A program made the position numbers and the translations under genes. A stretch of DNA of 64,000 bases from Halobellus captivus (GTDB lineage Archaea; Halobacteriota; Halobacteria; Halobacteriales; Haloferacaceae). Positions within the stretch are counted from its first letter, which is position 1, and the number at the start of each line of letters is the position of its first letter. Under the pieces are notes generated by a model. That model saw only the letters and a program-made list of their open reading frames with translations, had not been told where the DNA came from and made no database searches. The stretch is taken from contig NZ_RDQE01000009.1 of the NCBI RefSeq assembly GCF_003697845.1, forward strand, positions 62,001 to 126,000, written 5' to 3'. This document shows positions 24,406 through 47,900 of this stretch, in pieces.

Positions 24406-24480
24406 GTCCGTCGGTGGAGAGCTCTCACTCGTCCGTCGGTGGAGAGCTCTCACTCGTCCGTCGGTGGGGAGCTCTCACTC
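24406..24480. repeat. Three tandem 25-bp repeats, each with a GAGCTC-centred palindrome
   Basis: Units 24406-24430, 24431-24455 and 24456-24480 are identical except for one A-to-G change in the third. Each begins gtccgtcggtgg; units 1 and 2 hold the perfect 10-bp palindrome gagagctctc. The array lies 30-104 nt upstream of the FAH gene start on the minus strand, and its last unit contains the stop codon of the next minus-strand gene. There are no unique spacers, so it is not a CRISPR. Confidence 0.85.
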
Positions 24481-24888
24481 CCCTTCCGCGTTCCCGACGC
24501 CGATCACGACCGCCGACCGGATCTCGAGGGCGGCCTCGAACTCCGCGCGTCGGTCCGTCGTCGACCCCCACCGCTCGACCGCGGTCTCGTGTGCGCGGGC
24601 GACCGCGTCGCGCTCGCGGTCCGACAGGCCCAGACGCGCGCCGATCCCGTCCCAATGGTCGGGCTCGACGAGGAACGTCTCGCGGTCGGGGGCCGCCTCG
24701 ATCCGCTCGTACCGTCGGCGATAGTCGTCGAGGCGCGGTCCGAGATCGGCCTGGACGGACGAGAGGAGCGTCGGGAGTCGATCGGCGGGGACGCTCGCGA
24801 GCGCCGCGGCCTTCAGGAGCGCCGTCCCGTCGATCGGGTGGCCCCCGTCGCCGTTCCCGGTACCGTTTCCGGCGGATCCCGCACCCAT
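24475..24888 (-). CDS. Haloarchaeal hypothetical protein in the MoaD-fusion operon
   Basis: The 137-aa soluble, probably helical protein is of unknown function. After a flexible Gly/Asn-rich start, the core reads GTALLKAAALASVPADRL, LLSSVQADLGPRLDDYRRRY, then DHWDGIGARLGLSDRERDAV. I recall similar haloarchaeal orphans next to MoaD-like genes but cannot assign a domain number. Its ATG overlaps the stop of the upstream MoaD-like gene by 1 nt (TGATG), so the two are likely translated together and may act together. Its stop codon lies in the third unit of the tandem repeat, so repeat change could alter the C-terminus. Confidence 0.65.
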   Translation of the reverse strand: MGAGSAGNGTGNGDGGHPIDGTALLKAAALASVPADRLPTLLSSVQADLGPRLDDYRRRYERIEAAPDRETFLVEPDHWDGIGARLGLSDRERDAVARAHETAVERWGSTTDRRAEFEAALEIRSAVVIGVGNAEGE

Positions 24889-25511
24889 CAGCCGCCGGCC
24901 CGCATCGCCTTCCGCTCGAACTTCGGGAGCAACTCGTCCAGAACCGACTCCTCGCCCGCGAACGAGACGGTCACCTCCGTGAGCGTGATCGACGCCGCCG
25001 CGGTCACCGTCGCCGCGTCGAGCGTCGCGCGCCAGCCCTCGCCGTCCACGCGCGTCGCCGCCGCGGGGTCGTCGGTGCCGACGAGCTCGCCGCCGAGGTT
25101 CTCGAGGTAGTGGGCCGCGAGCCGCCGGGAGATCCCGCGATACGCGACCTCGCGGCGGACCCACCCGGGCTCGGTCGTCGGCTCCGGCGGAGCCTCCGCT
25201 TCTTCGTCGGCGGCGTCACCCTCGATCGTCCCGCCGGCGACGGGCGGAAAGACGGACAGCCGGTCGCCGTCGGCGAGTTCGGTGTCGAGTCCCTGGAGGT
25301 GTAACACCTCACGGCCGTTCTTCAACACGTTGATCTGGGGGGCGAGGTCGCCGTCGACGATCAGCCGACCGTCCATCCCCTCGTACTCCGCTTCCAGCGC
25401 GCGAAGTACGTCTCCGACGTCGGAGCCGTCCTCGAACTCGCGGACGACGGTCTTTCCGCCGGCGGCCTCCCGAAACGTCGCGAAGAACCGCAACTCCAGT
25501 TCCATACCCAC
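24888..25511 (-). CDS. MoaD/ThiS-like ubiquitin-fold protein fused to a second domain
   Basis: The 207-aa protein begins with a beta-grasp domain (residues 1-92; LELRFFATFREAAGGKTVV, INVLKNGREV, DRLSVFPPVAGG) ending in the Gly-Gly that sulfur carriers and SAMPs use for adenylation. In free SAMPs this is the C-terminus; here about 115 residues follow. An acidic linker (about 95-112) leads to a second domain (GWVRREVAYRGISRRLAAHYL; ITLTEVTVSFAGEE), possibly of the DUF1952/MoaD-related type, and the protein ends KAMRAGG, a second terminal Gly-Gly. Processing after residue 92, or use of the new tail, are both conceivable. A putative molybdate/sulfate transporter gene diverges upstream. Confidence 0.75.
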   Translation of the reverse strand: MGMELELRFFATFREAAGGKTVVREFEDGSDVGDVLRALEAEYEGMDGRLIVDGDLAPQINVLKNGREVLHLQGLDTELADGDRLSVFPPVAGGTIEGDAADEEAEAPPEPTTEPGWVRREVAYRGISRRLAAHYLENLGGELVGTDDPAAATRVDGEGWRATLDAATVTAAASITLTEVTVSFAGEESVLDELLPKFERKAMRAGG

Positions 25512-25942
25512 CGATCGGGACGTGGCGGCTTAAAAACGGGCGACACCGGTGGTACCTGTGGGGACGATCCGGCGTGGACGGCCGCGCGTCGGTCCACGCG
25601 AACCGATCCGTCGACGAGGGACGTGCGCGGCTCGACGGGAAGTGGACGTGGTGGCTCGGTGGAAACCCGTCGTCACAAGGGGCTCAGTGGGGGTAACTGA
25701 ATCGTCACTGCCACCACGGATCGGGATACTCGCTAACGACAATAAGTCGTTCGTGATACCTCCAACCCCAGACGGACGCGGACGGGTCGTCGAACGCTTC
25801 GGCGTCGAAAAGCGGAGACGAGTCAGTCTCGTCGTTTCCATTCACGGAGCCTTGGTAACCGAAATTGGGCACGTATCTCCGGAGAATAGCTGGATATGGT
25901 TTCTGAACAGGTTAATGTCTCTCGACGTTTTCTCCCAGTATA
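25512..25942. other. Gene-free divergent promoter region
   Basis: This 431-nt gap separates the MoaD-fusion and transporter genes. Its right half is less G+C-rich than its surroundings. ggttaatgtc at 25910-25919 is a likely promoter element for the transporter, about 24-33 nt before its GTG. An open frame at 25549-25983 is arginine-rich in its first half, overlaps the transporter start and shows no family; I do not accept it as a gene. Confidence 0.5.
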
Positions 25943-27031
25943 GTGGCGTTTTCAACCGAGTACTGGGACGGGGATTCGGTTGAGTTCTCCATTGATGAGT
26001 TCACCGGTGCGATAGGTGATTCGGTTACGGTGTTTCCGGTGGTGGTCGCCATTGCCGCCCTCACGGAGCTCTCGCTGACACGTCTCCTTCTCGGGTTCGC
26101 GGCGTTCCAGATCGTCTGGGGGCTCCACTACGGGCTTCCCATCTCCGTCGAGCCGATGAAAGCGCTCGCGGCGCTCGTGATCGCGGGCGCGCTCACGGCG
26201 AGTGAACTCGCGGTCGCCGGTCTCCTCGCCGGCGTCGTTCTTCTCGTCGTCGGGTCCACCGGAACGCTCGGTCGGATCGAGCGGTACGTGGGCCAACCGG
26301 TGATCCGAGGCGTTCAACTCGGAGTCGGGCTCATCCTTCTCGAAACCGGTATTCGATTGAGTCTCGACGGGCTGACGCTCGCACTCGTCTCGATGGGCGT
26401 CGCGGCGGTCGTGATCCTCGCGGGCTACCGGAAGGCGAGCGCACTCGTCGTTCTCTGCGTCGGCGTCGTCTTTACCGTCACTCGGGTCGGCGTCCCGACG
26501 CCGCAGCTTCCCGCGTTTACCGTGGGTCTTCCGAGCCCTTCGTCCGTCTCCGTGGCGGCGCTCGAAGGGACGGTCGCGCAACTCGCCATGACGGTCGGCA
26601 ACGCCGCCGTCGCCACCTCGTTGCTGCTCTCGGACTACTACGACGCGGACGTCTCCGCCGACGAGCTCTCCACGAGCATGGGCGTGATGAACCTGGTCGC
26701 CGTCCCGCTCGGGGCGATGCCGATGTGCCACGGGAGCGGGGGTGTCGCCGGAAAGTACGCCTTCGGTGCGCGAACCGCCGGATCGAACGTCGTTCTCGGC
26801 GCGATCTACGCGATCGCCGCCGTACTGGCGGTCGGTATCGTGTCGGCGTTCCCCCTGCCGATGCTCGGCGTCGTCCTCGGGCTGATCGCCGTCGAGCTCG
26901 GACGAGCGGGCCTCGACACGGATCACCTGCCGCTCACGATCGGGATCGGGTTGCTCGGTGTGGTAACCAATATCGGCGTTGCGTTCGTGGCGGGTGCTCT
27001 GGGGTACCTTCTCTTCGAACACGGGTCGTAG
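25943..27031 (+). CDS. MOT1/SulP-like putative molybdate or sulfate transporter
   Basis: The 362-aa polytopic membrane protein has about ten hydrophobic helices. The two signature loops of the MOT1 molybdate-transporter branch of the SulP clan are present: YGLPISVEPMKALAALVIAG (about 64-83) and MPMCHGSGGVAGKYAFG (about 259-275). It lacks a STAS domain, as MOT1 proteins do. The likely substrate is molybdate, with sulfate or tungstate as alternatives. The start is GTG 25943, supported by a TATA-like box. It diverges from a MoaD-like gene, which fits a link to molybdenum or sulfur metabolism; that link is inference. Confidence 0.82.
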   Translation: MAFSTEYWDGDSVEFSIDEFTGAIGDSVTVFPVVVAIAALTELSLTRLLLGFAAFQIVWGLHYGLPISVEPMKALAALVIAGALTASELAVAGLLAGVVLLVVGSTGTLGRIERYVGQPVIRGVQLGVGLILLETGIRLSLDGLTLALVSMGVAAVVILAGYRKASALVVLCVGVVFTVTRVGVPTPQLPAFTVGLPSPSSVSVAALEGTVAQLAMTVGNAAVATSLLLSDYYDADVSADELSTSMGVMNLVAVPLGAMPMCHGSGGVAGKYAFGARTAGSNVVLGAIYAIAAVLAVGIVSAFPLPMLGVVLGLIAVELGRAGLDTDHLPLTIGIGLLGVVTNIGVAFVAGALGYLLFEHGS

Positions 27032-47627: not shown

Positions 47628-47900
47628 CTATCCGCCGCTCACCGGCGGGAACAGCGCGAGCTCGTCGCCGGCCTCCAGTCTCGTCCCCATCCCGTCCTCG
47701 TGGTGGACGTTGCTCCCGTTACGGAGCACGTTGATGTGGTCCGCCACCTCGCCGTCGTCGAGGACGCGGTCGCGCAGCGCCGGATGCGCCTCGAGTAGGT
47801 CCTCGAGCGCGTCTCCGACCGTGTCGCCCGGCTCGGCGTCGACCGCGATGACGCGGTCGCCGGCGATCTCCGCGAGGTCCGCGAACAGCTTCCACTCCAT
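47628..47900 (-). CDS. samp1: Ubiquitin-like small archaeal modifier SAMP1
   Basis: The 90-aa beta-grasp protein (MEWKLFADLAEIAG; HINVLRNGSNVHH; GDELALFPPVSGG) ends exactly in Gly-Gly. It matches SAMP1 of Haloferax volcanii from memory, including the start MEWKLFADLAE and the end LALFPPVSGG. SAMP1 is conjugated to lysines by the E1-like UbaA and also carries sulfur for molybdopterin synthesis. Its UbaA is not in the window. It lies between the TrkA-C gene and dys in the same direction; spacings of about 25 and 78 nt make an operon possible but unproven. Confidence 0.92.
   Translation of the reverse strand: MEWKLFADLAEIAGDRVIAVDAEPGDTVGDALEDLLEAHPALRDRVLDDGEVADHINVLRNGSNVHHEDGMGTRLEAGDELALFPPVSGG

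Follow-up and report, generated by a model that had tools for sequence, protein, structure and literature searches.

How can a SAMP, which as a free modifier needs an exposed Gly-Gly, come to be encoded with that Gly-Gly inside a longer protein? The question is raised by a gene of Halobellus captivus located in the 64,000-nucleotide stretch of contig NZ_RDQE01000009.1 that was analysed here (the window; positions are counted from its first letter). A first-pass annotation, made from the letters and their reading frames, had seen a domain ending in PVAGG, a long C-terminal stretch beyond it and a second Gly-Gly at the end, and had proposed three options: an internal cleavage that releases a modifier, a second tail that is the active one, or a domain locked as a non-transferable sulfur or MoaE-binding module. 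The layout that it described is correct: PVAGG ends at residue 92 of the fusion, 113 residues follow and the protein finishes KAMRAGG, and the downstream gene does start in the stop codon of the fusion gene. The features of the locus are these:

24888-25505, minus strand: fusion gene, 205 aa
25230-25505, minus strand: SAMP3 domain, residues 1-92, a beta-grasp Ubl ending FPPVAGG (2m19_A, Foldseek and ThiS matches)
25230-25244, minus strand: PVAGG with the internal Gly-Gly, where JAMM1 is proposed to cut; conserved across loci
25158-25229, minus strand: acidic linker of ~24 residues, with low pLDDT and no in-frame start codon
24891-25157, minus strand: C-terminal domain, predicted beta-alpha-beta3-alpha, fits arCOG06308, present in 120/121 SAMP3 loci
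24891-24911, minus strand: KAMRAGG, the C-terminal Gly-Gly, abutting the stop in 120/120 loci
24886-24890, minus strand: TGATG, where the fusion stop and the ATG of the next gene share one base
24475-24888, minus strand: companion gene, a conserved neighbour, ~115-165 aa in its family, predicted alpha/beta
25943-27031, divergent: MOT1-like transporter gene (MFS_MOT1 PF16983, E 3e-44)

By homology, the fusion starts at the ATG at 25505 (MELELRFFATF) rather than at the GTG at 25511. Its first domain had been called MoaD-like with a SAMP-type tail, and it is indeed a Ubl, but specifically SAMP3 and not a generic MoaD or SAMP1. It matches 2m19_A, the Haloferax SAMP3 HVO_2177, at E 1.2e-34, compared with E 5e-11 for SAMP1; Foldseek gives 66% identity to 2m19, and ThiS (PF02597) is matched at E 3.7e-17. 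Judged by its sequence, the first domain is an orthologue of HVO_2177 in the beta-grasp region. The two share this domain and the FPPVAGG tail at ~66% identity, and HVO_2177 is a reported UbaA-dependent protein modifier. However, the solved Haloferax protein stops at its Gly-Gly, whereas the Gly-Gly in the window is internal and would become a C-terminus, as expected of a SAMP3, only if the protein were cleaved. NCBIfam labels the domain SAMP1 (NF041918) despite its orthology to SAMP3; because this entry captures SAMP3 orthologues too, the SAMP1 and SAMP3 labels in databases are mixed. The true SAMP1 of the genome also lies within the window (47628-47900) and ends PPVSGG at its stop.

Extensions were also seen in other SAMPs. 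SAMP1 has a tail of 4-8 residues after PPVSGG, for example TVGR or SAPR, at loci L218-L221, L223, L231 and L232. SAMP2-like proteins (VLRLIKGG) at L246, L249 and L254, which belong to three genomes of a single genus, continue in frame by 185-219 residues into a stretch that by eye is peroxiredoxin-like, and are another natural SAMP fusion. HVO_2176, a cell-shape gene adjoining samp3 in Haloferax, was set aside as unrelated to the fusion.

The second domain fits arCOG06308, a number that we assigned by description. In the passages of Makarova and Koonin (2010; PMC2948915) that treat it, arCOG06308 is TBP-like with a C-terminal GG, is confined to Halobacteria, has a MoaD-like gene and two small genes as neighbours, and is predicted to be a Ubl analogue. 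The domain in the window is likewise small and haloarchaeal with a C-terminal GG, in a neighbourhood of a Ubl and small uncharacterized genes, whereas those passages describe a separate small protein and mention neither a fusion to SAMP3 nor a tie to the tungsten-type aldehyde oxidoreductase (AOR). When the C-terminal domain was searched as a profile across the phylum (295 genomes), 39 genomes had it, every one of them from the window's own order (Halobacteria), and no relatives outside Halobacteria turned up in the sample. Pfam and NCBIfam gave no family for the window's domain, and its sequence profile matched no solved structure. In a Foldseek search with the AlphaFold model of the whole fusion (pLDDT 84.7, falling below 50 in the linker at residues 91-105), the best structural match over both domains was the two-domain, MoaD-related Thermus protein 1v8c (E 1.1e-11 over 193 columns, a score of which the MoaD part probably bears much). 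In this protein, too, a second domain comes after a MoaD-like one with FPPVAGG, but the sequence link between the C-terminal domains is weak, with DUF1952 (PF09189) matching 6 of 46 relatives (best E 2.9e-4) and not the window protein. The topology of the C-terminal domain in the model and the match to 1v8c, for which both domains were searched together, are compatible with a TBP-like fold. HVO_2178, a candidate for the Haloferax gene of this domain, is not mentioned in the literature searched. Extra copies of the TBP-like domain are located away from samp3 at G076:C1:720256-720498, G043:C1:49707-49955 and G094:C1:2164903-2165088.

We searched 243 genomes of Halobacteria and fetched 120 loci, and loci added later bring the SAMP3 total to 150; tail counts come from motif scans of the fetched loci and are not a full census. 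One SAMP3-hit locus (G013) had no motif in the scan. In most haloarchaea SAMP3 and its partner are separate neighbouring genes, adjoining or near each other in almost all non-fused loci, and the partner is present in 120 of the 121 fetched SAMP3 loci. Among the 150 SAMP3 genes, 76 end exactly at the Gly-Gly, 55 have a tail of 1-44 residues and 19 are fused. In 74/150 loci, then, a tail or a fusion covers the Gly-Gly, so that the form encoded is frequently a SAMP3 precursor. Many Halorubrum relatives have an ATGA overlap between the stop of SAMP3 and the start of its partner, and the protein there runs one residue past the Gly-Gly. Named genomes with the fused form include Halorubrum cibi, aquaticum, alkaliphilum, rubrum and halodurans; in H. 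kocurii, persicum and amylolyticum the genes are split and the tails short. A FastTree built from both domains shows seven changes of the fused state, of which at least four are forced by well supported branches. Linker length ranges from 3 to 47 aa across fused loci. Because the linker of the window, like most others, contains no in-frame ATG, GTG, TTG or CTG, the partner in such loci would most simply be made only as part of the fusion.

Where samp3 and the partner are 1-3 kb apart (L092, L110, L082, L104, L123), a gene named by eye as an AzlC-like permease lies between them. At L141, the interval between samp3 and the TBP-like gene holds an opposite-strand ORF ending PFIFCC, 36-498 bases past the samp3 Gly-Gly, that resembles the CC-ended Ubl arCOG00539 of PMC2948915.

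Conservation was examined at both Gly-Gly ends. Of 120 loci, 119 have PPVAGG and one has PPIAGG, and in all 120 KA[MVIL]R[AS]GG immediately precedes the stop, as it does in every further locus where the partner was found. An alignment of 18 fused proteins, whose linkers cannot be aligned, shows FPPVAGG without variation and KA[M/I]RAGG retained, so that both ends, as conserved motifs, are beyond chance. The first-pass annotation had held that its module and two-tail ideas would fail if homologues lacked the C-terminal Gly-Gly and varied at PVAGG and the transporter was no frequent neighbour; for the two motifs we found the opposite, and both tails are real. Conserved residues before the junction and free variation after it give this position the look of a processing site, where the chain may be cut.

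JAMM proteases are the candidates for such a cut. In vivo, HvJAMM1 cleaves a linear fusion of SAMP1 to MoaE, and it can reportedly also cleave SAMP3-MoaE conjugates (PMC4443979); the archaeal CsJAMM cuts SAMP precursors (PMC6043591). In those systems, as here, a Ubl has a covered Gly-Gly, whose release needs a JAMM there and would need one here; however, the partner there is MoaE or a short tail, whereas the partner in the window itself ends in Gly-Gly. A JAMM gene is present in 239 of the 243 genomes. We classed JAMM proteins by motif and length, split by an E-value threshold, into a strong group (EVCGVL...GFYHSHP; JAMM1-like) and a weak, near-universal one (JAMM2-like). The genome of the window encodes JAMM1-type and JAMM2-type proteases, two ThiF/E1-like genes and MoaE, and thus combines a JAMM gene with residues beyond a Ubl Gly-Gly, as a precursor would lead one to expect. 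Among near-complete genomes (~90% or more, by the tool's completeness figure), covered SAMP3 is seen in 68 of the 121 that have a JAMM1-type protease and in 0 of the 20 that lack one (Fisher 5e-7, ancestry ignored). However, JAMM1 changes only five times on the tree, with three independent pairs. These numbers are too small to give significance when ancestry is taken into account, and shared ancestry alone may therefore explain the pattern. Three genomes with covered SAMP3 and no clear JAMM1 match are 59-87% complete. Among the three options, comparison of the loci favours internal cleavage, because SAMP3 and the partner are separate genes in most haloarchaea and PVAGG is still invariant after fusion.

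What this protein might serve is suggested by its co-occurrence with the tungsten-type AOR. With AOR defined as PF01314 and SAMP3 called at E below 1e-18, 173 of 243 genomes have both, 66 have neither, 4 have AOR only and none has SAMP3 only; three of the four exceptions are genomes 78-88% complete. AOR follows SAMP3 in 10 of the 11 genera in which SAMP3 varies (two-sided sign test, p 0.002, mixed genus omitted) and is located within ~5 kb of it in 64/121 loci, although in the window and in most fused Halorubrum loci AOR is not beside the fusion gene. A SAMP1 query, in contrast, matches 54 of 59 genomes, AOR-less ones included, and shows no tie to AOR. MoaD proteins tied to AOR are known elsewhere (PMC1779556; AorD/AorE of Aromatoleum, PMC6365974; Ubls of Thermococcus, PMC11323500). 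They share with the present family a MoaD-like protein, a tungsten AOR and a proposed part in cofactor maturation, and the window's SAMP3 family likewise co-occurs with AOR or adjoins it, but the haloarchaeal set adds a TBP-like Gly-Gly partner and a conserved companion gene. We infer a role of SAMP3 in maturation or control of the AOR cofactor. In Haloferax, DMSO reductase reportedly does not require SAMP3 (PMC4443979), which means that a cofactor role, if there is one, must be specific to AOR or regulatory.

The companion had been taken for an orphan, a description that does not hold: it belongs to a conserved family found on the same strand beside the C-terminal domain in 105/121 loci, and in most loci its start is within 4 bases of the stop of that domain. 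Its AF2 model is confident (pLDDT 88.9, pTM 0.81), a fold search against the PDB returned no match under E 0.9 and nothing meaningful, and neither Pfam nor NCBIfam matched the window's protein, nor did Pfam match any of 40 relatives under E 0.01. The modelled structure is possibly a new fold. The divergent transporter is of the molybdate type by family, as had been proposed. As a member of the module it was ruled out, being near samp3 in only 2/121 loci; the proposed trio of orphan, fusion and transporter is not supported. The suggestion of a molybdenum- or sulfur-linked module stands as a molybdenum/tungsten link through AOR co-occurrence, but the transporter can no longer be counted in its support.

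Four things can be read directly from the genomes: what the first domain is, that the fusion is in frame, that both Gly-Gly ends are retained, and that SAMP3 closely tracks AOR. The explanation that we prefer, and hold to be reasonably probable, is that the fusion is a precursor joining SAMP3 to its usual neighbour, the TBP-like protein fitting arCOG06308, and that it is cut after PVAGG by JAMM1 and serves AOR. Cleavage by the JAMM1-type protease would yield SAMP3 with a usable Gly-Gly end and a second product that bears the linker and ends RAGG, a Gly-Gly end already free. The E1-like UbaA would then activate SAMP3, and possibly the second tail too, and the pair, together with the companion gene, would help to mature or control the tungsten/molybdenum cofactor of AOR. 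A bolder version, in which one translation product gives beta-grasp SAMP3 and the TBP-like protein, two Gly-Gly modifiers or sulfur carriers whose folds are unrelated, for a dedicated AOR cofactor pathway, making the fusion a natural double-Ubl polyprotein, we put forward only tentatively.

Alternatively, the chain may stay whole and its internal Gly-Gly never be freed, with the C-terminal RAGG as the active tail or the TBP-like domain docking to AOR or MoaE, and with SAMP1 as the free modifier. We consider this rather unlikely. It would agree with Thermus 1v8c, a protein of the same two-domain make-up whose structure was solved as a single chain and which speaks against cleavage; with the 120 loci, in which no residue is ever found beyond the C-terminal Gly-Gly and the SAMP3 Gly-Gly is often extended; and with the normal SAMP1 of the genome, whose PPVSGG abuts its stop. 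However, a dead internal tail should drift, whereas PVAGG is invariant in fused copies and the residues after it vary freely. Moreover, close relatives switch between fused, tailed and free forms, which suggests that processing makes these equivalent.

In MoaD-like proteins the conservation of the tail also reflects binding to MoaE. The internal Gly-Gly could therefore be kept only for folding or non-covalent binding, the fusion merely setting a 1:1 ratio of cooperating domains, and the adjoining of the two genes almost everywhere is what cooperating parts would lead one to expect. We regard this as improbable, since a tail that enters an active site needs a free end, which the fusion would block, and the low model confidence at the junction agrees with a site that is flexible and exposed. 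A sequencing or assembly error that joined two genes is hardly credible: one indel could fuse the ATGA-overlapping genes of split Halorubrum relatives, whose second gene is in another frame, but in-frame fusions with different linkers occur in 19 loci of several families and in five further named Halorubrum or related genomes and MAGs, and the linkers resemble halophilic protein (30% Asp+Glu), that of the window offering no in-frame start.

Given the natural fusions and tails, many haloarchaeal SAMPs may need maturation by JAMM, which would give JAMM1 a role besides removing SAMPs from their targets. The invariant RAGG end of the partner supports the predicted Ubl of a different fold. Finally, SAMP3 is a known archaeal modifier that, unlike SAMP1, tracks AOR almost perfectly, and this points to a part in maturing or controlling a tungsten enzyme.
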